In this document: piece by piece, positions 1-39,821 of the stretch
How the letters are laid out: every line of letters starts with the position of its first letter
Numbering within the stretch: the stretch's first letter is position 1
IMG/VR virus record: IMGVR_UViG_3300044646_001339
Span: 1 to 39,821 of that record
Length of the DNA stretch: 39,821 nucleotides
Reading direction: 5' to 3' (one strand)
Source: a virus
Notes under the pieces: model-generated
What the model was told of the DNA's origin: nothing
What the model saw: only the letters and a program-made list of their open reading frames with translations
The model's database searches: none
Program-made: the position numbers and the translations under genes

Positions 1-455
1 TTAGGGATTACACGGGTGGTTTCTGGCGTAAGTGGGTTGTGTTGAACTTCACACGCAAGTTTCAGGGCGCAGACGCAGACGTCAATATCGCGCAGTCTAT
101 CATTGAGTCAGACCTATCGGGCATTGCATCGTGGGCGTTAGAGGGTGCTGCACGTCTGGAGTCACGCGGGGGCTACCAGATACCCCCTAGCTCTGACGTG
201 GCCTTGTACCAGTGGCGCCACAGAAGCGACGTCGTTTTGCGCTGGGTAGAGGAAACGGGGCTAAAACCACAGGATGACGCGCAGATTTCGCAATCCCTGC
301 TTTATCAGGCTTTTGATGCCTGGATTTCAGCAAACGGGCATCAGCGCGTAACTTCCGCGACTTTTTCGGAAAGATTGCAAAATGCAGGATTTCGACAAAT
401 CGCAAAACGAGGAATTCCACACTTTTTCGCGAAATATTCGCCAATTTCGGAGTGA
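1..455 (+). CDS. D5/P4-type primase-helicase, C-terminal part (5' end lies at the right end of the window)
   Basis: The frame is open from base 3, before any start codon, and the first residues (RDYTGGFWRKW, then VLNFTRKFQ) match the conserved GFWRRW-IPFTRRF segment that follows the SF3 helicase core in D5-family phage primases. A region resembling the D5 'LSGIASWALEGAARL' segment and a C-terminal winged-helix-like stretch follow. The 612 codons at 37985-39821 carry the primase and Walker A part of the same kind of protein and stop just before this segment would be expected. I infer one gene cut by the linearisation point. The GTG at 39 is not a plausible start because homology continues upstream of it. 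The role would be priming and unwinding at the phage origin. Confidence 0.85.
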   Translation, partial: RDYTGGFWRKWVVLNFTRKFQGADADVNIAQSIIESDLSGIASWALEGAARLESRGGYQIPPSSDVALYQWRHRSDVVLRWVEETGLKPQDDAQISQSLLYQAFDAWISANGHQRVTSATFSERLQNAGFRQIAKRGIPHFFAKYSPISE

Positions 456-521
456 AAAACACGTGAAAAGTGCAAAAGTCAGTTTCAGCGCGACTAGACC
501 CAGGTGTGAAGATGCAGTGTT

Positions 522-673
522 CATCGGCATTGTAGCGTTTTACTCCACAGGTATCCTAGGCAAGCTCGATTTTGGGCATAGTTTTAGGGACAAGGGGGTC
601 AGATTTTGTAAAAGATACTCTAAAATATGGTTTACATAGGATATATGTGGATGGTTTTCCTACGATGCCGATG
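522..673. repeat. Imperfect inverted repeat, arms of about 52 bp
   Basis: Bases 522-573 and the reverse complement of 622-673 align without gaps at 35 of 52 positions by hand. The best-matching blocks are the outer CATCGGCAT(T/C)GTA and the inner CCACA--TATCCTA. The spacer is 48 bp. The arms are diverged, so this is an old inverted duplication or a cluster of regulator sites rather than a simple hairpin. Confidence 0.5.
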
Positions 674-688
674 GGCAGGGCATCGTAG
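660..688. other. 10-bp perfect hairpin CTACGATGCC / GGCATCGTAG
   Basis: The arms are 660-669 and 679-688 with a 9-nt loop. No run of T follows on either strand, so it is not a classical intrinsic terminator. The same GGCAT(T/C)GTAG word also occurs at 525-534, giving three copies in this spacer, which fits a protein-binding site as well as an RNA hairpin. Confidence 0.5.
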
Positions 689-753
689 AGGGTGGGTCTA
701 AAATACCCGAACATTGTTTTGAGTTGTGGATAACTTATCGGGGCTGTGGACAA

Positions 754-2497: not shown

Positions 2498-3055
2498 ATG
2501 TTAGACCACCTGCCCCCACTTCCAGACTTGCCCGTTACTGACGCGCAGCGCGTGTTAGAGCGTGTAACGTTGTCCGATTTTGCACAACGCGCAGGGCTAT
2601 CGCTGCCCGCTGTGAGCAAGGCTGTAGGCGAGGGGCGCATAGTGCGTGGTTTGGATGGGCTGCTAGAGTGGCCCACAGAGTTTGACCGCTACGTTTCAAA
2701 CACGCGCATGGATGCCGATAGGCTAGCGGCGTTTACAGGCATAGCAGGCGCAGACGTCGCGCTAGACTTCCAGGGTGCACGCAGCCGACTAACCGCAGCC
2801 AAAGCTGAACAGGAGGAAATGAAGCTAAAACAGTTGCGCGGTGAGTTGATACCCGTACAGGATGCGCTAGCTGTAGCAGGTGGCATATTGCAAACGCTAA
2901 AAGAACGTCTGCAACTACTGCCCGATAAGCTAGCGCTACAGCTTGCACAGACTAGAAACCCTGTGGAAGTTCGGCGCATACTCTATGACGGCATAGCAGA
3001 CACACTGCAAGTTGCAGCGGACAGCCTAAGTAATGCACGATTCGACAATCGCTAA
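2498..3055 (+). CDS. terS: Terminase small subunit (Nu1-like)
   Basis: This 185-residue protein would bind the packaging site and guide the large terminase. It has an N-terminal helix-turn-helix (about residues 25-45, SDFAQRAGLSLPAVSKAV) and a charged coiled region followed by LRGELIPVQDAL. These resemble the DNA-binding and LRGELV-type segments of lambda Nu1 and related small subunits. The start is the ATG two bases after the upstream stop. The 3' end overlaps the large-subunit gene by 23 bases, as is usual for terS-terL pairs. Assignment rests on layout and position. Confidence 0.75.
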   Translation: MLDHLPPLPDLPVTDAQRVLERVTLSDFAQRAGLSLPAVSKAVGEGRIVRGLDGLLEWPTEFDRYVSNTRMDADRLAAFTGIAGADVALDFQGARSRLTAAKAEQEEMKLKQLRGELIPVQDALAVAGGILQTLKERLQLLPDKLALQLAQTRNPVEVRRILYDGIADTLQVAADSLSNARFDNR

Positions 3056-5009
3056 AGAGTATCTGCACGCGTCTCTAGTAGAGACGATACGCCCATTGCA
3101 ACAGTTGTGGTTAGATGAGTTTGCGTATCGACATCGTGAGCTAACCGCAGAAGCATCAGCGTATGTGGGCAGGTTTGACGTGGGTTTGACCCCACCTATG
3201 CGCGACGTCTACCGCGCAATTAGCGACTGTAACTTTGACGTGCAAACCGTCGTTTGTGTGCTGGGTGCGCAGAACGCAAAAACAGACCTATTGATAAACG
3301 CTGTGGGTCAAGCCATTGTCAACGGTGGCCCCACTATGGTTGCTTTTCCGTCGCGCGAGTCACTGAACTCATTTCAGACGCAGCGACTAAATGCAATGTT
3401 CAATAACCCTATGGCTAACGGACAGCCTAACCCTGTGTGGGAAAAGCTACGGCTAGCACGTGAAACCAACAAGCGCGCAGTGTCTAATATGCGCACGCGT
3501 CAATATCCAGGCGGGTTGCTGTCGTTGGTGTCCACAGGTTCATCAAATAACCTGAACGGTCCACCCATGCGCCGCGTGTTCTATGATGAGGTTGACAGAG
3601 GCAAGGCGAGCGTGGGCGCCGATGGCCCACCCGTGCCGCAGTTGCGTAGGCGTACAAACGCAATGCCTAATCGCAAGTTACTGTTTCTGTCAACGCCTAC
3701 GGTGCGTAACAAGTCACCTATTCAGCGCGAGTTCTGCGCGACTGATATGGGTTTCTGTTACGTGCCTTGTCCGTTCTGTGGGTGGCGTCAGGTGTTGCGC
3801 TTTCAACCTGACAAAGACAGGCACCCAGGCGGGTTGTATTGGGAAACAAGCGACGCAGAAGTAATGTACCTATGCGAAAACTGCAAAGGTCTAATTTCAG
3901 AAGATTACAAAATAGGTATGTTGAAACAGTACGAGTGGCGCGGTGGGGGTTATGACAAATGGACAAACCTAGTAAATGGGCACGCTATCCCGCGTGACAC
4001 TATGGCTAGAGGGTTTCATATGTCCACTCTGTATAGCCCGTTCTATTCGTGGTCTGAAATTAGGCGCGATTGGCTGAAAGCGCGCAATGTGCCTAGCGAG
4101 TTACAAGGGTTCTACAACTTGACGCTAGCCGAGTTGTATGACTCACAGGATATAGCGAGCATTGTTGTGGAGCGCACGATACCCGAACACCCACGCGTGA
4201 AAGATTGCGGTGCAGGTAGAAATGTCGAGTGCCCCCCTGGGTCTGTAGCTGTGACGATGGGTGCAGACGTGCAGCGCGACAGAATCGAGATATCAGCTAT
4301 CGCGTGGGGTGAGCACGAACGCGGCACGGTTATAGACCACCACGTGTGTTACGGGCGTACTGAAACAAAGCCTAGTGTACCTGACTCGGTTTGGCAGAAG
4401 TTCACAGAGTACCTGTTACGCGAGTTCACGCACTCCGATAAGAAAGGTATGCGTGCAGTTGCTATCTGTGTGGATACAGGTTACGCCAAAGTGCTAGAGC
4501 ACGTACACGATTGGTTTAGAAACCTGCCACCTAAGTTGAAAGCGCGCGTCATACTGATAAAAGGCGACGCAGACCCTAAAGACCCACACGCCACACTGTG
4601 GCCCAAACAAGCGACAGCAAGCAAAGAAAGCGTGCAGAAGTGGGGGCACGCAGTTACTAACATACGTGTCGATATTGGAAAAGACACAGTGTTTAGGATG
4701 TTAGAGCACGGGCTAGACGGCATCGAAAGCGAGTGTTTGCTATTCGCTGACAACCCTGTGTTTGACAGCGAGTATTTTCGCGGCGTGTATTCAGAGGAGA
4801 AAATCACCAACGCTAACGGACTAGATGAATGGGTGCAGAAAGTGCGCAAAAATGAACCGCTAGACTGCATCGTTTACGGGTTGGCTGCCCTGCGTGCCTG
4901 GGTAAGTAGAGGGGGGCGCCTGCGCGACCACAGCGGGCTTGCCAGCACTAGAGTTAGACGGCATAGTCTAGCAGGGGCAACAGAACCCGACGGGGATACC
5001 TGGGTATGA
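3033..5009 (+). CDS. terL: Terminase large subunit (lambda gpA / GpA family)
   Basis: At 658 residues this is the right length for GpA-type terminases, the motor and nuclease that cut and package phage DNA. Visible elements are a Walker A-like GAQNAKTD near residues 79-86 (A-K-T instead of G-K-T/S), VFYDEVD at 182-188 as Walker B with its catalytic Glu, and STPT at 220-223 as the coupling motif. A zinc-ribbon-like CPFC/CENC pair follows at 246-249 and 281-284. GADVQ near 410-414 starts the RNase H-like nuclease. It overlaps terS upstream and the gpW-like gene downstream by four bases. The GpA family is used by both cos and other packagers, so the mode is not settled. Confidence 0.93.
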   Translation: MHDSTIAKEYLHASLVETIRPLQQLWLDEFAYRHRELTAEASAYVGRFDVGLTPPMRDVYRAISDCNFDVQTVVCVLGAQNAKTDLLINAVGQAIVNGGPTMVAFPSRESLNSFQTQRLNAMFNNPMANGQPNPVWEKLRLARETNKRAVSNMRTRQYPGGLLSLVSTGSSNNLNGPPMRRVFYDEVDRGKASVGADGPPVPQLRRRTNAMPNRKLLFLSTPTVRNKSPIQREFCATDMGFCYVPCPFCGWRQVLRFQPDKDRHPGGLYWETSDAEVMYLCENCKGLISEDYKIGMLKQYEWRGGGYDKWTNLVNGHAIPRDTMARGFHMSTLYSPFYSWSEIRRDWLKARNVPSELQGFYNLTLAELYDSQDIASIVVERTIPEHPRVKDCGAGRNVECPPGSVAVTMGADVQRDRIEISAIAWGEHERGTVIDHHVCYGRTETKPSVPDSVWQKFTEYLLREFTHSDKKGMRAVAICVDTGYAKVLEHVHDWFRNLPPKLKARVILIKGDADPKDPHATLWPKQATASKESVQKWGHAVTNIRVDIGKDTVFRMLEHGLDGIESECLLFADNPVFDSEYFRGVYSEEKITNANGLDEWVQKVRKNEPLDCIVYGLAALRAWVSRGGRLRDHSGLASTRVRRHSLAGATEPDGDTWV

Positions 5010-5209
5010 CTGACGACTACACAGAGGATGACTTGGCCCGAATCGCGCGTATACGCGCGTCAGGTGTGGCGAGCGCTACCCAGCGCGACGAAACCACCAC
5101 GTTTAGAAGTGATGCAGAGTTGCAATCGCTTGAACGTGAATTGCTGCGCAAGGTGCGTGGTAAGAAACGCAAAGCGTATGCGGTACTAGCACACAACAGG
5201 GGCACCTAA
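5006..5209 (+). CDS. gpW-like head-tail joining protein
   Basis: This 67-residue protein lies between terL and portal, exactly where lambda-type phages put gpW. It has the gpW-family layout: an N-terminal helix (DLARIARIRASGVAS), a short beta segment (TTFRSDA) and a second helix (LQSLERELLRK) with a basic tail. gpW plugs the portal channel after packaging and forms part of the connector. It overlaps terL by four bases (ATGA) and the portal gene by one base (TAATG). Confidence 0.8.
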   Translation: MTDDYTEDDLARIARIRASGVASATQRDETTTFRSDAELQSLERELLRKVRGKKRKAYAVLAHNRGT

Positions 5210-6720
5210 TGAGGCTGTCAAATCTCTATGGGGCACCCGTAGCGCGCGAGCAAGCTACCCCAGCGCTGGCACGGTCTTTCGAGGGGGCCACGCGCACCAA
5301 GCGGTTAGCAGGCTGGAACCCCACGCAAACGACGTTCAATAAGGACGTTGAACACGGGGGCAAGATACTGCACGCGCGCACCGCAGACCTTATCCGTAAT
5401 GACCCCCTCGTAAAGCGCACGCTTATCGAGTTCGTCAATTCGCTAGTGGGTGTGCACGGAATTAGGCCCGTTGCAGCGTCGCCAGACTCACGACTAAACG
5501 ACAAACAGGATGCACTATTCAAGCAATGGGCCACAGCGTGTGACGCGCGACGCGTAGGAACGTCTGGGGGTCTGTCGTTTGCTGGAATCCAGCGTATGCT
5601 AGCAACCATGTTTTGGACGCATGGTGAGGCACCCGTTTTGCGCGTGCGTACAGAGCTAGACGGTAAGACGCCCGTGCCTGTGCGCATACGCCCGTTGCAC
5701 CCTACGCAGATTGATAGTTCGCTAATGTCGCCTTTGCTGCGTGAGGGTTCACGTACGTGGCTGGGTGTTACGCTAGACGCTGGGGATTCTGTCACGGGCT
5801 ACCACGTCAAGGCGCGTGCAGTATCAGAGGACATCGGCGCACGCTCACAACATTTTGATGTTGACGATTTAGCGCTGTGTTTTGAACACCTAGAAGCGGG
5901 CCAGATTCGCGGCGTCTCGCCACTGGCACCTATCGTGCTAACGCTGCGCGATTTGCAAGACGCAGCCGATGCTGAACGCGTGCGTATGCGCGTCGCTGCG
6001 TGTTTTTCAACCATCATCGTTGGCGAAGATGATGACGAGCAAGACGAATTAGGACCGTTGCTAACTAAAGATGGTGAAACGCCCGTGTATAGTATGTCGC
6101 CTGCGGGTGTCTATTACGCACGTGGCGCTAAAGACATCATCAACCCAACGCCGCAAAGCGCAGGTGGCTGGAAGGATTTTGACTCATCACACCTTATGCG
6201 CATAGCAACAGGTGTGGGGCTTAGTCTTGACCGCTTGTCTGGCGATTTGTCTAAGTCGTCATATAGCTCGATTCGCATTGGCGATATTTCTTGGCGCACG
6301 CACGTAAACGCGTTTGCAGAGTTGTTCTTTATCCCGCTGTGTTTGGCGCCGATATATACGTGGTTTGTTACCGCTGCGGTTACGTCTGGTAAGCTACCAG
6401 AAAAAGCGCTGAACTACGCACCATCTTGGCTACACCCTGTGTGGCAACAAGCCGACACAGAGTCACAGTACAAAGGTGCTAAAGCTAAGGTGCGCTGTGG
6501 GGCCACTAGCCCCCAGCGTATGCTAGCCGAGGAAACAGGCGAGACGAATTGGAAACGCATAGTTGACGAAACCGCAGAATTTAGCGCGTACTGCAAACAA
6601 CGTGGTGTGTCGTTTGAAACTATGGTTGAACAGATAGCCGCTAACGGGCAGGTGCAAAGCGTCAAGGGTAAAGAGCCACAACCGACAGAGGAACCCCCAC
6701 CCGCGCAAGAACCCGAATAA
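5209..6720 (+). CDS. Portal protein, lambda gpB family
   Basis: This 503-residue protein fits the lambda-type portal, the dodecameric ring at the head vertex through which DNA enters. Recognisable family segments include NDPLVKRTLIEFVNSLVG near residues 64-81, a GEAPVLRVR strand, 'HLEAGQIRGVSPLAPIV' near residues 225-241, and a C-terminal SSYSSIRIG segment. The last 20 residues are Pro/Glu-rich. It follows gpW with a one-base overlap and precedes the protease-capsid gene, so head gene order is canonical. Confidence 0.92.
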   Translation: MRLSNLYGAPVAREQATPALARSFEGATRTKRLAGWNPTQTTFNKDVEHGGKILHARTADLIRNDPLVKRTLIEFVNSLVGVHGIRPVAASPDSRLNDKQDALFKQWATACDARRVGTSGGLSFAGIQRMLATMFWTHGEAPVLRVRTELDGKTPVPVRIRPLHPTQIDSSLMSPLLREGSRTWLGVTLDAGDSVTGYHVKARAVSEDIGARSQHFDVDDLALCFEHLEAGQIRGVSPLAPIVLTLRDLQDAADAERVRMRVAACFSTIIVGEDDDEQDELGPLLTKDGETPVYSMSPAGVYYARGAKDIINPTPQSAGGWKDFDSSHLMRIATGVGLSLDRLSGDLSKSSYSSIRIGDISWRTHVNAFAELFFIPLCLAPIYTWFVTAAVTSGKLPEKALNYAPSWLHPVWQQADTESQYKGAKAKVRCGATSPQRMLAEETGETNWKRIVDETAEFSAYCKQRGVSFETMVEQIAANGQVQSVKGKEPQPTEEPPPAQEPE

Positions 6721-6762: not shown

Positions 6763-8817
6763 ATGCGACTAGTTCACACACGACAAGCCCTGATTTCGCT
6801 AGCCCGCGCAGAGGGTGCTGACGTGCCCCCACAGGCTGCGGAAGCGCTGCCCGATGACGCCGCACCCGCTGTCCGTGATGGTGCGGTAATCAGCTACCGC
6901 AGGGGTAATAAGGAATCGGATGACCCATCCGAGAAATCGGACAGCTTCGATATTGTGCTGGCTACTGAAACGCCCGTGCGTGAGCGTGCGTTCGATTGGG
7001 ATACGCTGCGCGTCATCGAATATGAATCCGTGCTGTCTATGGATGGCGCGGATATTTCGCGCATGAATAACGCACCGTTCCTGTTGCAACACTCGCCTAG
7101 TGTGCACACGACGCTGGGTGTTGTGACTAACCCGCGCATCGAAAACGGTAAGCTAGTAGCCACTGTGCGTGGTTCGCTGCGCGCTGAAATGCAAGGGTTC
7201 TTGCAAGACATCGAAGCGGGCATTTTACGTCAAGTGTCGCTTGGTGCTAACCCCGTAGAAACCACTTGGACTGAACGCGCAAATAGTGTACCGCTTGCCA
7301 CTCACGTACGGTGGCAAGGTCTAGAGGGTTCACTAGTTGCTATCGGTGCAGACCCTAACGCAGTAACGCGTGCGCTACGCGCGCAAGTTCAACCCGACAA
7401 CAAACCCGCAGAACCACAAAACGAGGGTACAGACGAAATGAAGCTGAACGTAAAAGACGCTTTCGAGTTCATCCGGCGGGCAGAACGCCTGGGTATTGAC
7501 AGCAAGACGGCTGAAAGCCTTATCGATGCTCACCCAGACGCCACGCTCGATATGCTTACGGGCGTAGCACACCAACGCGCAGCGGCTAGCGCAAAGCCCG
7601 CACCGTCGTCTGTGGGTGATAACGAAACGATGCAGGCGCAGGCTGTGTCTGAGGGTATCACGCTCGCTATCATGCGGCGTGCAAACCCGGACAATCCGCG
7701 CATCAAGGCGCAGTTTGAAGCCAACGAAAAGGCTGGGGGGCTTGCCCGTCAGTTTGCAGGTATGTCGCTGCGTCGCATGGCTGAACAGATGCTTTCGCTT
7801 GACGGCATCAACACGCGCAACATGGATGAAACCGACATCGCACGCATGGCAGTGGGTATGGTTTCGGGTGATGTTCGTGAACGTCAGATTCGACGCGCAG
7901 CCACGGGCCACGGCATCGGTAGCTTTCCGAACGTGCTGGCTAACACTGTCTCGCGCGTCATCGCTGATGGTTATGAGTTCATCCAACCCACGTATATGCT
8001 GCTAGGCACCCGTCAGGATTTGCCTGATTTCCGCGAGACGAATTTCGTTCGTCTTTCGGATATGCCCACGCTGCGCAAGGTGGGTGAAAATGGCGAAATC
8101 AAGCGTGCGGTTCTGCGCGATGCCAAGTCAGGTATGCGCCTTGCGCGGTACGGTCTGATTATCGGCATCAGCTATGAAGCAATCATCAACGATGATTTGG
8201 GCGCGTTTAGCGACTTGTCCAACGAGTTCGTTGACATCGCACGCGAAACGGAGGCTGACGTAGCGTGGGCGCCCATCATCGGAAATGACGCTTTCGCTGA
8301 TGACAGCGTGGATTTTTTCCATGAAGACCATGGAAACATCAGCGACGTTGCAGAGCGGCCCAACGCAGCCACGCTCACGGACGCGCAACGCTTGATGCTC
8401 GCGCAGCGGGCTAAGGGCAGCACCGACGGACAGCCAGGGCGTTACCTGCGTCTGACGCCGCGCACCATCTTCACAGGCACGCAACTCTTTGGCGACGCGC
8501 AGCGCTCGCTAAATGACCGCATCTATCCCACGTCACCCACTGGCACGATGCCCGAAGCGCTGCGCGGGCAGTTTGCGCCACCTGTGTGCGAACCTCGCCT
8601 TGACGCGCTGAACGCGGGGCTTTCGTGGCTTGTCACGGCTGACACGTCGCGACGTGCTGGCCCCATCAAGTATGGGTTCCTGCGCGGGCAGGAACGCCCT
8701 GTGATTACCTCGCGCGAGGGTTTCGAGGTTGAGGGGGTAGAAATCAAGGCGTCGCACAGCTTCGGCGCAGGGCTGTACGATTACCGTGGTGCGGTGCTGT
8801 TCACGGCTGCGGAATAA
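6763..8817 (+). CDS. Fused prohead protease - major capsid protein
   Basis: The 684-residue product has two parts. Residues about 60-205 look like an HK97-type (U35) prohead protease: NNAPFLLQHS with candidate catalytic His110, and ILRQVSLGANP with candidate Ser159. From about residue 226 the sequence changes to a scaffold-like helical segment, then a capsid domain (about 380-684). One fused open frame carries both, so proteolysis between the domains would release mature capsid. AGAGGAG sits just upstream of the ATG. A methionine at residue 226 with its own ribosome-binding sequence may give a separate capsid-only product. No independent major capsid gene exists elsewhere. Confidence 0.85.
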   Translation: MRLVHTRQALISLARAEGADVPPQAAEALPDDAAPAVRDGAVISYRRGNKESDDPSEKSDSFDIVLATETPVRERAFDWDTLRVIEYESVLSMDGADISRMNNAPFLLQHSPSVHTTLGVVTNPRIENGKLVATVRGSLRAEMQGFLQDIEAGILRQVSLGANPVETTWTERANSVPLATHVRWQGLEGSLVAIGADPNAVTRALRAQVQPDNKPAEPQNEGTDEMKLNVKDAFEFIRRAERLGIDSKTAESLIDAHPDATLDMLTGVAHQRAAASAKPAPSSVGDNETMQAQAVSEGITLAIMRRANPDNPRIKAQFEANEKAGGLARQFAGMSLRRMAEQMLSLDGINTRNMDETDIARMAVGMVSGDVRERQIRRAATGHGIGSFPNVLANTVSRVIADGYEFIQPTYMLLGTRQDLPDFRETNFVRLSDMPTLRKVGENGEIKRAVLRDAKSGMRLARYGLIIGISYEAIINDDLGAFSDLSNEFVDIARETEADVAWAPIIGNDAFADDSVDFFHEDHGNISDVAERPNAATLTDAQRLMLAQRAKGSTDGQPGRYLRLTPRTIFTGTQLFGDAQRSLNDRIYPTSPTGTMPEALRGQFAPPVCEPRLDALNAGLSWLVTADTSRRAGPIKYGFLRGQERPVITSREGFEVEGVEIKASHSFGAGLYDYRGAVLFTAAE
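7423..7440 (+). promoter_or_regulatory. Candidate internal ribosome-binding site and start for capsid-only product
   Basis: GAGGGT at 7423-7428 lies nine bases before an in-frame ATG at 7438, which is residue 226 of the protease-capsid fusion and falls at the domain boundary, after a Pro/Asn/Glu-rich linker. Initiation here would give a 459-residue capsid or scaffold-capsid protein. In-frame internal starts that yield scaffold or capsid from protease genes are known in lambda- and Mu-type phages. Here it is an inference. Confidence 0.4.
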
Positions 8818-10554: not shown

Positions 10555-12075
10555 ATGGCTCTGTTGTCGATTCCTAGGTCACTCCGAACCCCTGGCACCT
10601 ATGTCGAAGTGCGGGGGGCACCCGCGCGCACCCCTACGCGCCCAAAGGCGTTCCTCGTGGGGCAGGTGACGTCTGACGCGACCGTAACCGCAGGGGTGCC
10701 TGTGCGCTGCCTGGGTGCCAGCGACGCAGAGGGTAAGTGCGGCGTTTCGTCCGTGTTGGCTGCCATGGCGCGGGCTTGGTACGCTAACAACGTAGCCGCA
10801 GACCTATGGCTGTTGCCCCTAGCGGACCCAGGTGGGGGTGCCGCTGCGGAAGCGACCATCACCATCGATGACGGACCCACAGCAAGCGGCACGTGGAATG
10901 TATATATCGGCGGTGTGCATGTACCCGTTGCTATTGTTGCGGGCTTGACCGTCGCGCAAGTCGCAACCCGTCTAGGTGCAGCCGTCAACGCAAACAAGCG
11001 TTTGCAATGCACCGCTGCGGTTGTGGACGAAGTGGTAACGCTTACGTTTGTGCACGATGGCACCATCGGCAACGGCTATGACGTGCGCTTCAATTTCAAG
11101 GGTTCGGCTGCGGGTGAGGTAACGCCCGCAGGGCTTGGCTACACGCTGACGAACTTCACGGGTGGTTCGGGCACTGTGTCGCTGTCTACCATCGGCACGA
11201 TGCTTACGGGTCACAGCTTTCGATGGCTGGTACACCCGTACGGCACAACCACGCCGCTTGACAACGTCAAGACTGAAATGGAGTCGCGTTGGAATTACGC
11301 GCGACAGGAATGGGGTACGGCGTTTAGCGCGTATGGGGGCAGTTACGCTAACGGCGCAAGTGCCGCAGCGGCACGTAACAACAAATATGAGGTTCTTTGG
11401 GTTTACCGCGCAGGCGAAACGCTCGGTTCAGGCACAACTGACCCCCGTGGCGAGGGTGCGCGCATCGGGCATCCCACGCCGCTCTATACGTGGGTTGCTG
11501 CCCATACGGCTGCGTATACCGCCGTTGTGGGGGTTCTTGCGTCGCGTGGCGCGGTTGATGTCGAAGTGCGGGGGGTGCACGGCTGTGACGAACTCGATAA
11601 GGTGTCCGCGCTTGACACGTCAGAGCTTTTGCTAGAGTCGGGTGCTAGTTACAGCACTGTCGATGCGCAAGGTCGCGTGCATATTGGTGACGTCATTTTG
11701 ACGTATCGCCTTGATGAATCGAACGCTGCGGATTCCTCGTGGTATTCTGCAAACGTTACGGAAATTCTGGGTTCTTACGTGTTGCAGGTGCCTAAGTGGG
11801 TGGCGCAGGATTTCCGAAATCACTTGCTGTATCCTGACGGTGCTCGAGTGTCGGCTAGCGTGCCTGTGGTCACACCCGCAATCGCGAAAGCTAAAGCGGT
11901 AGAGTATTACCGCAAAGGCGAGTTTGCGGGTGTGGTGCAAGATTCGGACGCTTACGAGCGGTCTATTCGCGTGACCATCAACACGGATAATCCCGAAATG
12001 CTCGATTACGAAACGCTACCAGACCTCGCTAACGCGTTCAAAATCGGACGATGGTCTGTTGAGTTCACGCGCTAA
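10555..12075 (+). CDS. Contractile tail sheath protein (Mu gpL family)
   Basis: This 506-residue protein has the Mu gpL signature. Its N-terminus reads 'IPRSLRTPGTYVEV' and then 'RPKAFLVGQVT', used in sheath-sheath linkage, followed by the 'GVPVRCLGASDAEGKCG' segment. The C-terminal domain includes 'KVSALDTSELLLESG', 'YRLDESNAADSSW', and 'VVTPAIAKAKAVEYYRKGEFAG' near the end. The sheath contracts around the inner tube to drive DNA injection. Its presence makes this a myovirus-type phage. Confidence 0.93.
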   Translation: MALLSIPRSLRTPGTYVEVRGAPARTPTRPKAFLVGQVTSDATVTAGVPVRCLGASDAEGKCGVSSVLAAMARAWYANNVAADLWLLPLADPGGGAAAEATITIDDGPTASGTWNVYIGGVHVPVAIVAGLTVAQVATRLGAAVNANKRLQCTAAVVDEVVTLTFVHDGTIGNGYDVRFNFKGSAAGEVTPAGLGYTLTNFTGGSGTVSLSTIGTMLTGHSFRWLVHPYGTTTPLDNVKTEMESRWNYARQEWGTAFSAYGGSYANGASAAAARNNKYEVLWVYRAGETLGSGTTDPRGEGARIGHPTPLYTWVAAHTAAYTAVVGVLASRGAVDVEVRGVHGCDELDKVSALDTSELLLESGASYSTVDAQGRVHIGDVILTYRLDESNAADSSWYSANVTEILGSYVLQVPKWVAQDFRNHLLYPDGARVSASVPVVTPAIAKAKAVEYYRKGEFAGVVQDSDAYERSIRVTINTDNPEMLDYETLPDLANAFKIGRWSVEFTR

Positions 12076-17276: not shown

Positions 17277-17278
17277 CT

Positions 17279-23292: not shown

Positions 23293-23429
23293 ATGCAGGC
23301 GCCGCTATGGGTCTGCTACTCGGGTTTGTGTCGTCTGTCGGCGGCATCTGGCTGCGGGGCGCAACCACACAGCCAATGCAGGAAAGCCCCGAATCACGCG
23401 ACAGCAAGGGCAACGCAGATGAAAGCTGA
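23181..23429 (+). CDS. Holin, two transmembrane segments
   Basis: The 82-residue protein has a basic N-terminus (MRVRRKDGRISR), hydrophobic helices at about 14-33 and 38-58, and a charged, Ser/Glu-rich C-terminal tail. This matches small class II-type holins that permeabilise the inner membrane to release endolysin. AGGGAG nine bases upstream supports the ATG. It lies in the lysis cassette after the endolysin and spanin-like genes. It is the best holin candidate here, though no sequence motif defines holins. Confidence 0.65.
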   Translation: MRVRRKDGRISRTVIFHGAFVFVCVASIIYFTATDKLDAGAAMGLLLGFVSSVGGIWLRGATTQPMQESPESRDSKGNADES

Positions 23430-29965: not shown

Positions 29966-30778
29966 TTACAGCGGTATTGCGCCGCTAAGTGCGCAGCGTG
30001 CAGCGAAAGGGCACCCGCCATAATCGCCACAGGCTTGCGAATTGAAAGCCACTTTAGTTTCGTCTTGCTCTGTTGATGCTGTGTGCATCGTGTCAAGCAA
30101 CTCGGTTATAAGTGCCGCTGCCCACTGCAACGTGACACCATCGATTGTGACTGATACCTCACGCGCCTGGGGTGTGCCCTTGGTGGCGTACTGCACCCAT
30201 TGAAAGACATACTCTGCGCGGTTGTCAGGCACCACTAGCCGATGCACAGGGTATGTGTTGCCCCGTTCGTCGCTGTAGTTGCCTATTACGTGCTCACGCG
30301 ACAGCACGGCGTGCAGGTGTAGCAGGTAGATTGCACCTTGCAAATCCTCGCGCAATTCCTCGCTCTGACGTTCGTGTGACAGCCGGAAAGACGCCGCTGT
30401 TTTGTGGTCTGTTACGCGTCTATCCCAGGGTAACAATAGGTCGATAATGCCCACAACCAACACGGGCCAATGTGGCGCGTATATGGCAAACTTGCGCTCT
30501 ATCTGGAGTGGCGACACAGGGGGCTTAGGCAAGTAGGGAATCCCAGGGCGCATAATGTCACCTGGGTCTGCACCGCGCAGTAAGTAGCGCTCGATTGCAG
30601 CATGGTATTTCTTACCTGCGGTCAACCACGGCTGTTCTTTTTCGTACACCCCTAGGATGCGCCCGTAATACCAGCGACGCAGGCAACGCTGTGCGGTCTT
30701 TAGCTGTGATGGTGACGCGTGGCGCCACGTGCGCCGTGAATCGCGAAACGCAGACCGCAGCCATTGCAGAACGGACAT
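29966..30778 (-). CDS. RecB/Cas4-like nuclease with Fe-S cysteines
   Basis: The 270-residue protein shows PD-(D/E)XK nuclease motifs of the RecB/Cas4 type: SPSQLKTAQRCLRRWYY (Cys32), a G--YH-AIE region (His59), GIIDLL with Asp113, VTDHKT with Asp124 and Lys127 nearby, and Q-AIY near 147-151. The C-terminus has Cys250, Cys256 and Cys262, which with Cys32 make a plausible iron-sulphur cluster as in Cas4 and AddB. It would resect DNA ends in recombination. The ATG at 30778 lies two bases after the upstream stop; a longer frame upstream overlaps the preceding gene and is unlikely. Confidence 0.8.
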   Translation of the reverse strand: MSVLQWLRSAFRDSRRTWRHASPSQLKTAQRCLRRWYYGRILGVYEKEQPWLTAGKKYHAAIERYLLRGADPGDIMRPGIPYLPKPPVSPLQIERKFAIYAPHWPVLVVGIIDLLLPWDRRVTDHKTAASFRLSHERQSEELREDLQGAIYLLHLHAVLSREHVIGNYSDERGNTYPVHRLVVPDNRAEYVFQWVQYATKGTPQAREVSVTIDGVTLQWAAALITELLDTMHTASTEQDETKVAFNSQACGDYGGCPFAARCALSGAIPL

Positions 30779-30780
30779 TG

Positions 30781-31233
30781 TCACGGCTCGCGCTTGCCCC
30801 TGCCCTTGCTGGGTGCTGCGGGTGCCCCGTTCAGGCATCGCGCACAGATGGCAGTGCTGATATCCCCAGGCGCCTGCGGGTTCGGTCTGTGGTCGGCTAG
30901 CAGCGTGGCGCGGATAGACTGCAACCACGCAGGCGAAACCGCGAAAGGTTCCGTTCGGCTCTGCGCAGTCACGCGACCGTCAGCGAGGTACATATCACGC
31001 ACGGGCAGCACGCAGACCCCGCGCGAATCGTATGGAATGGCTGCGCGGTTGGCGAGTTCAGCGAGTAGCTCTAGCGCATCCTCCATGGCTGCCACGCGTT
31101 CAGAAAAATCCTCTAGCGTGCTAGCGAGTTCGCTAGCGGGGTTCTTGGTAGAGGTAACGACGCTGTGTGCCATCGCGCTAAGCTCTGCGCTGATGCGGTA
31201 TCTGTGGGGGTATACTAGGGGCATGGTGAACAC
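30781..31233 (-). CDS. Unknown protein, up to 150 aa
   Basis: No family is recognised. The start is uncertain: the ATG at 31233 gives 150 residues, while the ATG at 31173 gives MAHSVVTSTKNPASEL and 130 residues. Residues about 30-65 are an acidic helix, the middle has beta-like segments ('GVCVLPVRDMYLADGRVTAQ'), and near the C-terminus are ICARC and a Lys/Arg-rich end. The CxxC plus earlier cysteine could bind metal. It directly precedes the Cas4-like nuclease gene and probably shares its transcript. Confidence 0.55.
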   Translation of the reverse strand: MFTMPLVYPHRYRISAELSAMAHSVVTSTKNPASELASTLEDFSERVAAMEDALELLAELANRAAIPYDSRGVCVLPVRDMYLADGRVTAQSRTEPFAVSPAWLQSIRATLLADHRPNPQAPGDISTAICARCLNGAPAAPSKGRGKREP

Positions 31234-33034: not shown

Positions 33035-34357
33035 TCAGCTAGCAAAGATTTGGATTTCTTGCGCGTGGTGTTCTGCCCGTTTCAGGTTGCCTTTCAGAGT
33101 GTGCATCCTGAACGCGAAAGCGTGAGCCCACAGACGCGCTTGACGGGCCACAGGGTGGTTGACCACCTGGGTATCGCTGTAAGCGCTTTCCGCAGCCACG
33201 TAGGCGCCTTCCAAGCGCTCGATAGCAGCCAGACGATTTGACGCGTGCAGCGCTTCCGCAATTTCTGCGTCTGACAGAGCGTCAGCGTAAAAGAACCGCT
33301 GCGCGGACAGGCGAGCGAATTCGCGCGCTTGCGCCGCTCGGTTGCGGGTGGGGCCATCGAAGGCGAGCCGTTCAGCCTCATTAGCCGCGTGTTCAGCACG
33401 TTGCGCAGCGAAAGCCACGTGCGTCTTGCGGGTTTTGCGCTCTGCGCGAGCGAGCATGATGCTCTGCGCGGCACCTTCCACCCGTTCGATTGCGCAGGCT
33501 TCCCGCAGATGATAGCCGTACGCGCTTGCGATACACGCGGTAGCCGCATCGTGCCACATTTGAAGCATCGTATAGTGGTGCGTGCCGTCAGCGTAATGCT
33601 GCGCGTCATAGGGCAGTTTTTCCGCAGCCTTCATTTCACGCTCTGCGGCACGGATAAGACGGCGCAGACGCACCAATTCACAACGAACGATGCACTCGTG
33701 TTCGTGCTGTTGTGCGTCATCTTTGAACCCCATAAGGGTTGCAGCGCGCACACGGGCAGCGTAACCCCAGGCTTGCGCGTTGTCGGTGCCAACGCTCGCG
33801 CAGTGCTCTGCGAACGTCGTCAGCGCGTGGTTGATTTCGTAGACGGCGCAGCGCAGGGCGTCAAGCACACCGTCTTTGTGGAACAGGTTATCAGGCTGGA
33901 AAGCCAGGGCGTTGCGCGGGTTGGCGTCCAGACGCGACCACGAAATCAGCGACTCGGTTGCGTAGTCGAGTTGTTTCGCCACAGCCGGCATACGTGCCTC
34001 TGGCATCGCGCGCAGAGCGTCGCGAATCTCGCGCGCAGTGGCGACCGTCAGCGCGTGAGGGGCAGTAATCAGCGTGGTGTAGATTTCGTTCGTGTTCATC
34101 GGCTTAGCCGCTTCCGCAGCCTTAGCCGCTTCTGCACGGGCCACGCACTCTTGGACGCTCGCGAGACAGCTTTCCGCGATTTTGGCGCGGTTGTCAGCGC
34201 TGTACCAGCTACGGCACTTGCGCGACTTGACCCAATACTCACGCGCCTGCGCCGCTTGAAAGCGGGTGTAGTCATCGAAGGCCAGACGTTCACAAGCCAG
34301 CCAAGCGGCGTGGGCGCGGTGTTGTGCCATCTCGATTTGTTCGGCTGCGTTCGTCAT
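33035..34357 (-). CDS. Early protein of a novel repeat family, 440 aa
   Basis: The protein is Ala/Arg-rich and helical. Residues about 8-70 contain RAHAAWLACERLAFDDYTRF followed by QAAQARE, then KSRKCRSWYSADNRAKIAES. Residues about 330-385 repeat the theme: RAEHAANEAERLAFDGPTRN, RAAQARE, then YADALSDAEIAEAL. The rightward early protein at 35303 has a third copy. So these are paralogues with an internal duplication. The start at 34357 uses GGAG eight bases upstream; an ATG 11 codons earlier (34390) is in frame and lies in a leader conserved in all three copies. It is first behind a duplicated promoter. Function unknown; host takeover is only a guess. Confidence 0.7.
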   Translation of the reverse strand: MTNAAEQIEMAQHRAHAAWLACERLAFDDYTRFQAAQAREYWVKSRKCRSWYSADNRAKIAESCLASVQECVARAEAAKAAEAAKPMNTNEIYTTLITAPHALTVATAREIRDALRAMPEARMPAVAKQLDYATESLISWSRLDANPRNALAFQPDNLFHKDGVLDALRCAVYEINHALTTFAEHCASVGTDNAQAWGYAARVRAATLMGFKDDAQQHEHECIVRCELVRLRRLIRAAEREMKAAEKLPYDAQHYADGTHHYTMLQMWHDAATACIASAYGYHLREACAIERVEGAAQSIMLARAERKTRKTHVAFAAQRAEHAANEAERLAFDGPTRNRAAQAREFARLSAQRFFYADALSDAEIAEALHASNRLAAIERLEGAYVAAESAYSDTQVVNHPVARQARLWAHAFAFRMHTLKGNLKRAEHHAQEIQIFAS

Positions 34358-34442
34358 GTTCGTTGCTCCGTCGTTCGTTGTTTCGTTCATCAGCACCACG
34401 GACAGAATACGCATCTAGCAGAAGGGGTCAACTAACTTTCTT
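34354..34442 (-). repeat. 89-bp direct repeat, copy A (promoter, leader, start)
   Basis: Identical at all 89 positions to 34728-34816. In the minus orientation it holds the conserved arm sequence AAGAAAGTTAG, the -35 and -10 boxes, the leader, the GGAG ribosome-binding site and the ATG start of the 440-residue early gene. Perfect identity implies a recent duplication or gene conversion. Confidence 0.95.
34404..34431 (-). promoter_or_regulatory. Early leftward promoter A (TTGACC-16-TATTCT)
   Basis: Reading the minus strand, TTGACC (complement of 34426-34431) is followed after 16 bases by TATTCT (complement of 34404-34409). This is a good sigma-70-type match. It lies about 50 bases upstream of the ATG at 34357 and directly abuts the 19-bp hairpin at 34432-34480. 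Confidence 0.6.
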
Positions 34443-34480
34443 GCTGCGTGATGTCGATTTCCACGCAGCAAGAAAGTTAG
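34432..34480. other. 19-bp perfect hairpin, 11-base loop
   Basis: CTAACTTTCTTGCTGCGTG (34432-34450) and its exact complement at 34462-34480. It lies between the stop of the 81-residue early gene (34486) and the -35 box of promoter A. There is no T run. It could terminate the upstream leftward transcript or bind a regulator. Copy B of the direct repeat retains only the first 11 bases of one arm, CTAACTTTCTT, so the second arm is unique to copy A. Confidence 0.75.
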
Positions 34481-34485: not shown

Positions 34486-34731
34486 TCAGGGGGTGATGAA
34501 TTGGCGGTAAGTGATTTTCGGGGCTACCCGTGCCATCTTGGCAACTTCGATGCACTGACGCTCAAGGATGAAATCCCGCTCACCATTACGCGCTTTAGCC
34601 ACAGCGCTAAATGCCATACTCCACGCGAGCGCGTCCCAGTAAGCGGGCAGCAAGCCCGCACCGTTTCGGATGTCACGTGCGAACTCGAAAGCGTAGGCTG
34701 CGGCGTCTCGGATTTCCTGCGTGGTCTTCAT
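34486..34731 (-). CDS. First early leftward protein, 81 aa
   Basis: It starts at the ATG inside copy B of the 89-bp repeat (34731), with GGAG upstream, and begins MKTTQEIRDAAAYAFEFARD. The protein is helical, with a Trp/Tyr patch (PAYWDALAWSMAF) and a basic C-terminus. No family recognised. Because its promoter, leader and start are identical to those of the next gene, the two should be expressed together and early. Confidence 0.65.
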   Translation of the reverse strand: MKTTQEIRDAAAYAFEFARDIRNGAGLLPAYWDALAWSMAFSAVAKARNGERDFILERQCIEVAKMARVAPKITYRQFITP

Positions 34732-34816
34732 GTTCGTTGCTCCGTCGTTCGTTGTTTCGTTCATCAGCACCACGGACAGAATACGCATCTAGCAGAAGGG
34801 GTCAACTAACTTTCTT
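34728..34816 (-). repeat. 89-bp direct repeat, copy B
   Basis: Perfect copy of 34354-34442, offset by 374 bases. It provides the promoter, leader, ribosome-binding site and start codon of the 81-residue early gene. Beyond the repeat boundary (34817 onward) the sequence differs at once from copy A. Confidence 0.95.
34778..34805 (-). promoter_or_regulatory. Early leftward promoter B (TTGACC-16-TATTCT)
   Basis: Minus-strand TTGACC (complement of 34800-34805) and TATTCT (complement of 34778-34783) at 16-base spacing, identical to promoter A. It is the outermost leftward promoter of the divergent control region. Confidence 0.6.
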
Positions 34817-34907
34817 ACTTTTCTGCGCGTGGTGCGCTGGGTTTATGGGTGGCGCCCCCTCTAGCCTACTCAATAATACAACGTGCGTGCGCACGCGTAG
34901 CAGAAAG

Positions 34908-35191: not shown

Positions 35192-35235
35192 TAACGCGCA
35201 AAATCGACATCGGACCTAAGAAAAAAACTCCACAG

Positions 35236-35305
35236 CTTCCGCTGCTCGTGTATCTTGCCCGTGGTGCTGATGAACGAAACGACGGATGACGGAGCAAGCA
35301 AGATG
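35236..35305 (+). promoter_or_regulatory. Third, inverted and diverged copy of the early promoter-leader
   Basis: This 70-base stretch aligns without gaps to the promoter-leader of the minus-strand copies at roughly 80% identity, including 22 identical bases starting at 35259. TATCTT at 35251-35256 aligns with the TATTCT -10 box, but no TTGACC is present upstream. GGAG at 35291-35294 precedes the ATG at 35303. The substitutions keep the 11-codon frame MNETT-DGA open, so the leader may be translated. Confidence 0.65.
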
Positions 35306-35749
35306 AACAAAAACCTGAATACGCAAGCTGTGGTTGTCGGGGGCACCAAAACGCACGCCGACACGTTGGCCGAAATGCAAAAGCGCGCCTATGACGCGTG
35401 GCAGTACGCAGAGCGTAACGCGTTCGATGCCGAAACCCGTTACCAAGCGGCGCAGGCACGTGCTGCGTGGGTGGCTAGCCGCAAGTGCTCCAAGTATTGG
35501 ACCGCTGAAACGCGAGCGGAAGTGGCAGAAAGCTGCGCCAAAATCGTGCGGGATGCCTGCGCGGTGCGCGACGGGCAACGCGCTATCAGCGGTGCGAGAA
35601 AACACGCGGTGCGACAACTCGACGCAGCGCTTGACAACGTGAAAGCGGTACAGGCTGACGCACTAAACGCTGATGAGGCTGCAAAACTCGCTGAAATCCG
35701 CGCGAGCATCAACCACCTTATCGGTTTGATGTCAGGCAACGGGCTTTGA
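35303..35749 (+). CDS. Rightward early protein, paralogue of the leftward 440-aa protein, 148 aa
   Basis: Residues about 25-80 read RAYDAWQYAERNAFDAETRY, QAAQARAAW, then VASRKCSKYWTAETRAEVAES, aligning residue by residue with the N-terminus of the leftward early protein. The rest is a helical Ala-rich region ending in LAEIRASINHLIGLMSG. The start at 35303 has GGAG eight bases upstream; an in-frame ATG at 35270 would add the conserved 11-residue leader. Gene duplication and inversion around the control region is the simplest history. Function unknown. Confidence 0.7.
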   Translation: MNKNLNTQAVVVGGTKTHADTLAEMQKRAYDAWQYAERNAFDAETRYQAAQARAAWVASRKCSKYWTAETRAEVAESCAKIVRDACAVRDGQRAISGARKHAVRQLDAALDNVKAVQADALNADEAAKLAEIRASINHLIGLMSGNGL

Positions 35750-36804: not shown

Positions 36805-36819
36805 CGAGGGGCATCTAGC

Positions 36820-37689
36820 ATGAAAAAGAAACATCTAAAGCTGAAACTTCGTGAGCTAATCGACACGTGCAACGGGTGGCGCGCGCTTTATGCAGATGTC
36901 TGTTCACAACTGCAAGGGGCCAAAGCCCAACTTGCAGACGAACAACACAAAACCCAGGTGTTGACGCACCAACGCGACGCGCACCGTGATGAGTGCACGC
37001 GCCTGCGGGCTACGCTGTCAGAGTACACGGACACAGCAAAGGTGCTGCGTGACGTGCTGGATAGCGTGCAGCATGGAACCGTCATCAGCGCGTGTGAAGA
37101 ACTCAAATCCCTGCGGGCTAAGTGTGCCCCTAACGATTCAAATACACGTGCTCTAAACAACGTGCTGGACGTCAACAAAGAACTAAACGCTAAGATAGAC
37201 AGATATCAAGCGGAGATTACTAGCCTGCGTGCGAAGCTGTCAGAGTGTGAACGGGCCAGCGCTGACGCTACGGCGCAAATCAAAAGCCTGCAAGATGCCC
37301 TTGCGGGCAGAACACACGACTATGACCACGTGTGGGCAGAAGCGCAAGCGCTGCGCGAGGAACGCGACGCCACACAGGAAAAGTGGGCCATCGCGCATAA
37401 CGAGTGTGTCAGCCTGCGCGCAGAGTTGTCTAGACAAGTAGCCGAACAGGCGCAACAACTAGACGAAAGCGCGAGTGAGGTTTTGCGCCTGCGCGCAGAG
37501 TTGCTCACCGCACTAAACCAACGCGACGAGGCAAAGCGCGATGCGGATAACCTCGCAGATTTGCAAAACGCGGAAATCGCTAGGCTTACCGATGTTGCTG
37601 CGGGCTTACGCAGAAAACTGCACGCGCGTGAGTCTATCCCAGCACGTGACGACAGACCCCTCCCAGGGGGGCCAGAATCCAACCGATGA
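36820..37689 (+). CDS. Long coiled-coil protein, 289 aa
   Basis: Almost the whole protein (about residues 25-265) is charged heptad-like helix rich in Glu, Arg, Lys, Leu and Ala, e.g. ISACEELKSLRAKC, KSLQDALAG, and SEVLRLRAELLTALNQRDEA. Recurrent LRA(E/K)L units are spaced along it. It has no membrane segment or enzymatic motif. Such proteins in phage early operons may be structural scaffolds or host-protein binders. The stop overlaps the next gene by four bases. Confidence 0.65.
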   Translation: MKKKHLKLKLRELIDTCNGWRALYADVCSQLQGAKAQLADEQHKTQVLTHQRDAHRDECTRLRATLSEYTDTAKVLRDVLDSVQHGTVISACEELKSLRAKCAPNDSNTRALNNVLDVNKELNAKIDRYQAEITSLRAKLSECERASADATAQIKSLQDALAGRTHDYDHVWAEAQALREERDATQEKWAIAHNECVSLRAELSRQVAEQAQQLDESASEVLRLRAELLTALNQRDEAKRDADNLADLQNAEIARLTDVAAGLRRKLHARESIPARDDRPLPGGPESNR

Positions 37690-37985
37690 CGTGCAGCGAG
37701 TGCGGGCTAGCCTTGCTCGGTGCAACCCCCTGTGGGTGTGCCAGCCTGACAGCGGCGCAACTGCGTGCGATGCTGCGTCTAGCGCGTCAACACAACGACA
37801 AACTAGGCGCAGCGCTCACCGCAGCACAGTACGAAAACAAGTGCCGCACCGCAGAGCGAGACGCCAACGCGGAAGCTAAATACACGCTGGGTGCGCTGTT
37901 TGAAGAGTGCAGGGCTGAACTACACACGTATGACGCAGGCGCAGCGCTGGCTATGATGCGCAAGCGTGCTGACTCTAGGTTCTAA
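37686..37985 (+). CDS. Zinc-ribbon-like protein, 99 aa
   Basis: The N-terminus MTCSECGLALLGATPCGC has a C-x2-C ... C-x-C cluster, like the 100-residue protein at the end of the leftward operon, followed by a long Ala/Arg/Glu helix. It overlaps the coiled-coil gene by four bases and the primase gene by one (TAATG). It may assist priming at the replication fork; this is inferred from location only. Confidence 0.6.
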   Translation: MTCSECGLALLGATPCGCASLTAAQLRAMLRLARQHNDKLGAALTAAQYENKCRTAERDANAEAKYTLGALFEECRAELHTYDAGAALAMMRKRADSRF

Positions 37986-39821
37986 TGCTAGTCACAGTGT
38001 TACCTGACAAGTTTCCGTGTAGTTGGCGAGCCACTAGCCTGACAGAGCTAGACAAACACGGTAAGCCCATACGGTTCTTTCCTGTGTTGCCCATCAGGCA
38101 AGCGCTAGAACACGCATACAACACAGATGCACACTTCGCCTGCGCCGTGCTCACGCAGAACGGCACCCCCTGCACCACTAGCCCGCGCATCAAGCAACAC
38201 GCGTACAACACACTAGACGTGGCTGGGTGGCCCGTGCGCTTTGGTGTGGCTGCGTTCGATTGTGATGACCCAGTGGCCCACGAACAAAACAAGTTGTGGG
38301 AAGCATCGGGCAGCACCCAGCGTATGGACGCAAGACCCGAGTGGCGTGCATCGTTTGCGTCTCGATATGCAGCCTTGCCAGAAAACACGCGTGCTGCGTT
38401 GGCGTGGTATGAATCACGCGCGGGCTATCGATTGGTGTGCATATTGCCTAGTTGGCTATCGGCTGCGCAGTATGCAGATTTTCACGCTAGGGCTAGAGCG
38501 TGGTTTGTGGCGCGGGGCATCCTAGTAGACCCCACCTGCAAAGACCCGGCCCGCTTGTACCGGCTGCCGATGGTGCAGCGAGACGGTAGAACCGAACGCA
38601 GGGCTCTGTCTACCCGTGAGCTAGAGCGTAGCCTACCGGCTGAAACGGTGGCTGACATCCTCGCCTGTGAACCCCTGGGGGGCTCTAGGGACTCGGCTAG
38701 CCCGGATGACCCCTACGCAGACCCAGCCACAAACGCACTTACAGCCAAGATAACCGAGAATCGAAACCTAGTGCTGACGTCGCTAGCGGGGCGCCTGCGC
38801 TCGATAGGGCTAGAGGCTAGCGAGATACGCGCAAACCTGCGTGCTGTGAACGAACAAAGATGCTCGCCACCTTTGGACGTTGCAGAAGTGGACCGCATAG
38901 CGGACAGCGTTGGGCAGTACGCCACGCGCGAGGAATTGCGCGGAAGTGAAGCGAACCCAGCGCGAGCGCTGCCACCTGAACCGCTCGTTGATACTGACGT
39001 GCGGTTTTTGCTGGGGTCTGACGTCGAAATAGCTAACGCCGTGCTGGCACACTTTGAACCCGCAGGTGCACCACAGACTGTGTATGACCGTGGTGGGCTG
39101 TGGGTGTATCAGCCTGCGCGTGGTGTGTGGGGTAACGTCAACCCGGAAGCGGTACGCAACCAAGTGCGCCTTATGGATGGCGAGTGGATAGCCACAGGCA
39201 AGACGGGCAACGATGGGCGCCCTAAAGTTACTCGGCTGCGTGTGAGCGGGAACCTGCCACGTAACGTGGAAAGTGCGTGCTATGACTTGCGCTCGCGCGA
39301 GGGGTTCTTTGACGCCGCAAGACCGGGGTTTGCGTTTAGTAATTTCTTTGTGACAGTGCAAGCGGGCAGGGTGCAGGTTGAACCACACAGACCCGAGAAT
39401 CGAGTTACAGCCGGTAGTGTGTGGCCTTATGTGCCCACTGTGCAACCGCTGCGGTTCTTGCAGTTTTTGCATGACATATGGAACAACCAACCCGACAGGA
39501 TGCAGCGTATAACGTTCTTGCAGGAGTTCGTGGGTGCTGCATTGTTGGGCATAGCCACCAAGTATGAGCGTGCTGTGATGTTCACAGGCGACGGGGCTAA
39601 CGGTAAGTCGCGCTTGGTGACTATGCTTAGTGCTCTGTTCCCAGATAGCGTGAGCACCGCAATACCACCACAACTGTTTGATAATGAGTACCGCAGGGCA
39701 GCGCTAGCGCGTAGTCGCTGGAACGTGATAGCCGAGTTGCCCCAACAGGAATTGGTGGGCAGCGAAATGGCTAAGGCTATCATCAGTGGTGACGTCACAG
39801 ATGGTAGAGAGATAAGACAAT
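37985..39821 (+). CDS. D5/P4-type primase-helicase, N-terminal part (continues at base 1)
   Basis: 612 codons, open at the window end. Residues about 1-210 look like an archaeo-eukaryotic-type primase (PrimPol): AAFDCDDP near residues 89-96 supplies the D-x-D, with 'AGYRLVCILP' and DPARLYRLP after it. From about 480 the D5-N region and SF3 helicase follow, with GDGANGKS (535-542) as Walker A and the WNVIAELPQQE segment as Walker B. It stops just after the 'AIISGDVTDGREIRQ' region. The missing next part (sensor segment and GFWRRW) is at the left end of the window. It primes and unwinds DNA for the family A polymerase. Confidence 0.88.
   Translation, partial: MLVTVLPDKFPCSWRATSLTELDKHGKPIRFFPVLPIRQALEHAYNTDAHFACAVLTQNGTPCTTSPRIKQHAYNTLDVAGWPVRFGVAAFDCDDPVAHEQNKLWEASGSTQRMDARPEWRASFASRYAALPENTRAALAWYESRAGYRLVCILPSWLSAAQYADFHARARAWFVARGILVDPTCKDPARLYRLPMVQRDGRTERRALSTRELERSLPAETVADILACEPLGGSRDSASPDDPYADPATNALTAKITENRNLVLTSLAGRLRSIGLEASEIRANLRAVNEQRCSPPLDVAEVDRIADSVGQYATREELRGSEANPARALPPEPLVDTDVRFLLGSDVEIANAVLAHFEPAGAPQTVYDRGGLWVYQPARGVWGNVNPEAVRNQVRLMDGEWIATGKTGNDGRPKVTRLRVSGNLPRNVESACYDLRSREGFFDAARPGFAFSNFFVTVQAGRVQVEPHRPENRVTAGSVWPYVPTVQPLRFLQFLHDIWNNQPDRMQRITFLQEFVGAALLGIATKYERAVMFTGDGANGKSRLVTMLSALFPDSVSTAIPPQLFDNEYRRAALARSRWNVIAELPQQELVGSEMAKAIISGDVTDGREIRQ

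Follow-up and report, generated by a model that had tools for sequence, protein, structure and literature searches.

The virus record IMGVR_UViG_3300044646_001339, whose full 39,821 nucleotides constitute the window analysed here, contains neither GATC nor TTAA, and these two absences are accompanied by the loss of many 6-base-pair (bp) palindromes and several asymmetric words, and by a depletion of bipartite sequences bearing an adenine on each strand at particular distances. A broad avoidance of restriction sites, directed against many restriction-modification (R-M) systems, is the favoured explanation and is given a probability of about 85%; we infer restriction enzymes to be the selecting agents, with Type II systems almost certainly and Type I/IIB systems probably among them.

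An exact count of GATC over positions 1-39821 returned zero, in agreement with a preliminary description of this DNA, and the joining of the two ends (GACAAT to TTAGGG) creates no site either. The number of sites that the same description expected by chance, about 150, holds as a mononucleotide figure (149.8), although about 60 is a fairer expectation for coding sequence: in 200 synonymous shuffles the expectation was 61.7 +/- 6.7, and the lowest count among the 120 shuffles checked was 46. These shuffles retain the proteins and codon counts exactly and the dinucleotides nearly (a summed change of 310 over some 39,800), and leave codon context beyond dinucleotides unmodelled. The Markov comparison that had been proposed, with expectations built from sub-words, gave 0 against 125.6, such that the zero lies far outside chance under all three expectations. 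TTAA, the absence of which was not noticed in the preliminary description, is likewise missing, against 57.4 (Markov) or 53.9 +/- 5.7 (shuffle) expected. GATC and TTAA are the only absent tetramers, and both fall in the range described as elimination in a published survey of thousands of viruses, with an observed/expected ratio below 0.1 and more than 15 sites expected (PMC6286503).

The purge works via the choice of synonymous codons. Aspartate preceding a codon that starts with C is encoded by GAC 54 times and by GAT never, as compared with 375 GAC and 291 GAT (44% GAT) elsewhere; isoleucine following a codon that ends in G is encoded by ATC in 0 of 83 instances, against 245 of 407 elsewhere; and an NTT codon stands before AAN in 0 of 186. 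When the genome was divided into four segments, the shuffles predicted 22.5, 17.1, 14.7, and 8.2 GATC sites and 18.6, 15.3, 15.0, and 5.1 TTAA sites, respectively, with none of either observed. All four segments would thus be expected to carry sites, and therefore the structural and replication modules have both been purged.

The footprint extends well beyond the two tetramers. A further 83 hexamers with neither GATC nor TTAA inside them are absent, whereas the five shuffles inspected lacked only 2-5 hexamers of any kind. Palindromes are preferentially affected: 11 of the 34 testable 6-bp palindromes (those with 5-25 occurrences expected, excluding any containing GATC or TTAA) are missing, in comparison to 50 of 1457 non-palindromes, a preference of approximately ten-fold, and of the 50 catalogue sites that are missing, 27 are palindromic. 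GGCC, CCGG, CATG, GTAC, RCCGGY, YGGCCR, CTGCAG, CAGCTG, and CCGCGG, all known Type II targets, are among the catalogue sites found to be missing or low, as are GCATGC and WCCGGW. Non-palindromic words have also been purged, namely (observed/expected) CAGCAG 0/42, CACCAG 0/31, CTGGGC 0/23, CTGAAG 0/16, GAATGC 0/17, and CTCAG 1/49. Some of these asymmetric words are catalogued targets (AcuI, BsmI, BspCNI), and CAGCAG is the EcoP15I site. Strand-specific avoidance of a Type III-like kind was considered and rejected, the strongest zero hexamers being gone from both strands.

A second type of depletion was revealed when [C/G]A-Ng-T[C/G] pairs, abbreviated SA-Ng-TS, were scored gap by gap against the synonymous shuffles. 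At a gap of six, 347 pairs were observed against 564 expected (standard deviation (sd) 18), with further shortfalls for SA-N8-TS (402 against 506, sd 15) and SA-N9-TS (439 against 580, sd 16), and no depletion at g = 4, 5, 7, 10, or 11. SA-N6-TS is low in each of the four genome segments and on both strands, independently of gene strand. On the sense strand, GAN6TG (93/177), CAN6TC (62/103), and GAN6TC (31/67) are all reduced; the avoidance of internal ribosome sites was entertained as a source of the GA-N6-TG loss and discarded, since the reverse complement CA-N6-TC and also GA-N6-TC are low on the sense strand too. Among 3+3 trinucleotide pairs, 14, 20, 18, and 8 fell below a quarter of expectation at gaps 5, 6, 7, and 8, respectively, where shuffles yield about 2, and 2, 2, and 0 did so at gaps 9, 10, and 11. 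Of the known IIB sites, CGAN6TGC is depleted (16/32), and GCAN6TGC and TGAN6TCA are not. In Type I sites the two methylated adenines are separated by 8 or 9 bases (EcoKI, EcoAI) or by 6 (the StySBLI/KpnAI type); a spacing of 6 is also used by IIB enzymes, BcgI among them. Judged by spacing, the depleted gaps are consistent with the geometry of Type I and IIB restriction sites.

The purge of the two tetramers is specific to the phage lineage and is not a trait of its structural family. The window has only distant relatives: megablast of positions 1-25000 against the phage collection returned no match, the best terminase relatives in that collection are 28-29% identical, scans of IMG/VR with the terminase and polymerase found no relative, and relatives of the capsid protein are only 25-34% identical. 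A total of 160 loci with homologous capsid genes were fetched, of which 120 of at least 8 kilobases (kb) were used. Their observed/expected GATC ratios are at least 0.56, with medians of 1.07 for bacterial genomes and 1.05 for IMG/VR, so that the comparison with related phages suggested in the preliminary description showed no depletion comparable to that of the window, the only one of the compared loci at zero GATC. The TTAA count is also the lowest among the loci, the next being 4 against 8 expected. CTAG, for its part, is over-represented in the window (Markov observed/expected 1.2), whereas the fetched loci that reach 10 kb or more have a median of 0.475. An attempt to predict the host from the tetranucleotide signature gave a best correlation of 0.39 and was uninformative.

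The bipartite dips, on the other hand, recur elsewhere. In a small panel of named phages, picked mostly by homology and scored with the same null, Bordetella phage PBb001 (PV564983) stood at 0.55 at N6 and 0.62 at N9, Rhodobacter phage RcKemmy (MW677517), scored over its first 24.5 kb, at 0.77 for SA-N6-TS and 0.72 for SA-N9-TS, and MW202816 showed a weak SA-N6-TS dip (0.84); the N6/N9 dips are absent in T7, S1, LPPA33, JWF, PG1, BZS1, and CRP-821. Pooled relatives gave 0.99 for SA-N6-TS, with a period-3 artefact of the automatic gene caller at gaps 1, 4, 7, and 10 and none at 6 or 9. A dip at gap 7 only was seen in Pseudomonas phage PG1 (OQ504958; 0.73) and Serratia phage BZS1 (MT843275; 0.86), and may be genuine for PG1 alone because the artefact in the pooled relatives reaches about 0.9 at this gap. 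PBb001 and RcKemmy resemble the window in their homologous capsid-protease fusion and many absent palindromes as well as in these dips. They differ in having kept GATC (171 against 208 in PBb001, 286 against 243 in RcKemmy) and avoid other words, CTCC and GAG, respectively. In RcKemmy (1-24525), GAG occurs 33 and CTC 22 times, compared with 711 GAA and 751 GAC; GAGC is found once per strand and the residual GAG is mostly GAGT. One relative, IMGVR_UViG_3300044941_000526, is a strong avoider with another target set (CCGG 1 against 49; GCGCGC, CGCGCG, and CCGCGG absent). Two separately deposited cyanophages, Leptolyngbya phage Lbo-JY12 (PP438405.1, whole, 41.7 kb) and Phormidium phage Pf-WMP3 (NC_009551, 1-43000), contain only 4 and 5 AAT and 0 and 2 ATT, respectively, with AAC and AAG at about 900-1040 each, and this trinucleotide purge is not easily attributed to one ordinary restriction site.

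According to the favoured explanation, a virulent contractile-tailed phage would escape restriction mainly by carrying no recognition sequences, after having long been exposed to a host population in which R-M systems were many and varied. Selected synonymous changes would have removed every GATC (DpnII/MboI/Sau3AI type) and every TTAA (MseI type); the same selection would have taken several asymmetric sites along with many of the 6-bp palindromes, and would have made rarer those bipartite sequences in which the strands each bear an A at a distance of 6, 8, or 9 bases (Type IIB/Type I geometry). Several observations weigh against it. No avoided site has been linked to an enzyme, and the survey cited above saw no avoidance of Type I or IIG sites in phages (PMC6286503). 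The bipartite signal is uneven over known IIB sites, with GCAN6TGC (AlfI, 34/29) and TGAN6TCA (BdaI, 5/5) undepleted, and low 3+3 pairs reappear at larger gaps, 10 of them at gap 13 flanked by 6 at gap 12 and 5 at gap 14. Of the asymmetric hexamers that are catalogued sites, 5 of 106 are missing, against 28 of 1615 others, an enrichment of marginal significance (p = 0.048), so part of the non-palindromic depletion may stem from codon-context bias outside the null; the median z does not differ between catalogued and other asymmetric hexamers.

The most probable of the competing proposals concerns the bipartite part and attributes the SA-N6/N8/N9-TS depletion to another adenine-methylation-dependent defence, or to a constraint on DNA binding, in place of Type I/IIB restriction. 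It draws on the fact that the evidence is one of spacing, and on the undepleted classical N6 IIB sites already mentioned. The 3+3 gap range of 5-8, the A-to-T orientation, the symmetry between strands, and the independence of gene strand nevertheless fit Type I/IIB geometry, and the dips recur in PBb001 and RcKemmy and not in T7; the proposal is considered possible though the less probable of the two. The absence of the dip from T7 accords with the Type I reading, as this phage carries Ocr, an inhibitor of Type I enzymes. The more general proposition that some phages reduce bipartite two-adenine Type I/IIB sites genome-wide, with SA-N6/N8/N9-TS as its gap-resolved signature, is put at even odds.

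It is improbable that GATC was purged through Dam-linked host processes, such as MutH mismatch repair or SeqA, and not through restriction. Precedent for such a route exists in phiX174, which is also wholly without GATC and in which the restoration of sites lowers the mutation rate; mismatch repair was put forward as one factor there, the forces being described as unclear, although phiX174 differs from the window as a 5.4-kb single-stranded DNA phage with 20 GATC expected (PMC5014478). Escherichia phage T7, with 6 GATC against 92 expected, may be cited alongside it. Such processes predict the loss of GATC only, while TTAA is just as completely gone and the depletion takes in other palindromes, asymmetric words, and bipartite pairs; Dam as the sole cause is refuted because TTAA is at zero, and a Dam-linked contribution to the GATC loss could still be present. 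Selection by restriction, which the preliminary description had proposed, thus stands as the best explanation, while its attribution to a single GATC-cutter (MboI/DpnII type) or a Dam-linked process falls on the absence of TTAA, the 11 of 34 palindromes, CAGCAG and CTCAG, and the SA-N6/N8/N9-TS pairs.

Slightly less credence still is given to the view that the absences arose without any nuclease selection, from composition, a bias in codon context, or the signature of a host genome. The 6-mer landscape is indeed over-dispersed (3.65, against about 0.78 in shuffles) and includes strong enrichments, among them CGCAG (397 against 249 expected) and GGCTA (184 against 95). Such bias would nonetheless have to produce zeros where 54-62 sites are expected under a synonymous null that nearly preserves dinucleotides, strike palindromes at about ten times the rate of non-palindromes, and confine the SA-Ng-TS effect to particular gaps, with no dip at g = 6 in T7, S1, LPPA33, JWF, or the pooled relatives under the same null. 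Lastly, the selection of the contig by a restriction-digested library (for example with a GATC cutter) or by assembly bias is very improbable, given that a digest may favour a site-free genome and cannot create an absence that follows synonymous codons in intact genes, nor does a dispersed palindromic and bipartite depletion resemble a digest pattern.

Set against published cases, this genome belongs, by the palindromic part of its restriction-site avoidance, to a known class, of which it is an extreme member. The survey found orthodox Type II sites to be eliminated in phages, no avoidance of Type I and IIG sites, and very rare avoidance of Type III sites (PMC6286503); the window is akin to the virulent double-stranded DNA phages described there in having eliminated palindromic Type II sites with no recognisable protective genes, and differs in that two 4-bp sites are wholly gone and non-palindromic and bipartite sequences are depleted in addition. 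T7 resembles the window in its GATC avoidance and in lacking 9-10 of the roughly 50 6-bp palindromes that could be tested, and departs from it in having a normal TTAA count (207 against 188), no SA-Ng-TS dip, and Ocr. In the literature searched, no earlier description of bipartite-site avoidance was found, and this part would be new if it is due to restriction.

The record is probably a complete, circularly permuted genome because the last open reading frame (37985-39821, forward strand) reads in frame over the ends into 3-455. The junction-spanning frame has 764 codons and a single terminal stop, with PriCT_1/DUF5906 in its first part and Pox_D5 in its second, in the order expected of the primase-helicase that it is annotated as (PriCT_1 2.3e-13; DNA primase phrogs); a terminal repeat was sought at the record ends and none was found. 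Genes were called with an in-house script. On the forward strand lie a VRR-NUC domain protein resembling Holliday-junction resolvases (754-1140; Pfam VRR_NUC 1e-5; phrog_824, phrog_5702), the terminase large subunit (3033-5009; phrog_15 1.3e-122), the portal protein (5209-6720; phrog_21 3.8e-58), the major capsid-protease fusion (6763-8817; phrog_4523 2e-109 and alignment), the sheath of a contractile tail (10555-12075; phrog_165 3e-98), the tape measure protein (12888-14597; phrog_8125 4.9e-24), and Mu-like baseplate genes with a tail fibre (14600-21323; phrog_184 hub, GpP-like, GP46, Baseplate_J, Mu Gp48, and fibre/appendage phrogs). The reverse strand encodes a family A DNA polymerase (24007-25989; DNA_pol_A 2.2e-15), a DEAD-like helicase (27142-28857; phrog_62 6.8e-8; DEAD 1.1e-4, under the gathering cut-off), and a PD-(D/E)XK nuclease (29966-30928; PDDEXK_1 1.2e-14). 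There is no tRNA gene in the window, and the phage is presumed virulent because no integrase was recognised among the called genes.

As the preliminary description had stated, no protective gene is recognisable: neither a DNA methyltransferase nor an Ocr-, ArdA-, or SAM-hydrolase-like protein was matched when called genes were searched against PHROGs, Pfam, or PADLOC, the last applied to 10 proteins only. Some inhibitor of restriction is possible among the approximately 20 small proteins without any family match. The sole hint of nucleotide-pool manipulation is a forward-strand protein with a dATP/dGTP diphosphohydrolase N-terminal domain (23419-23700; PF18909 5.2e-21; phrog_801 2.9e-24), from which a 2-aminoadenine (Z) genome was considered and dropped, no PurZ/adenylosuccinate synthetase-like gene being found among the called genes. 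Two repeat families were also observed. At 34351-34445, 34725-34819, and 35217-35307, a 95-bp sequence repeated at 98% identity and an inverted copy of about 75% identity sit before or inside the starts of small neighbouring genes whose products have the N-terminal stretch VVLMNETT(N/D)DGA in common, and these are perhaps duplicated promoter/leader segments. The protein encoded at 26020-27126, adjoining the replication genes, consists of Pro-Gln-Gly-Met repeats (GGMMPPQGYPQQ) underlain by nine copies of a 56-nucleotide repeat and has no family match.

Restriction-site avoidance itself is already known, and it is the breadth of the phenomenon and its bipartite part that run against the published generalisation. 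The genome represents an extreme case, in which two tetramers have been purged synonymously within a broad palindromic and non-palindromic footprint, and absent-word profiles of this kind could help to narrow down candidate hosts. If the bipartite part is truly Type I/IIB avoidance, it would overturn the published view, which confines avoidance to orthodox Type II sites, and pair depletion by gap would offer a simple statistic for Type I pressure on any phage, metagenomic ones included. It would then be possible to test for an escape from bipartite depletion in phages that encode Ocr, SAM hydrolase, or ArdA-like inhibitors, and the restriction repertoire of unidentified hosts would become readable from the phage genome alone.

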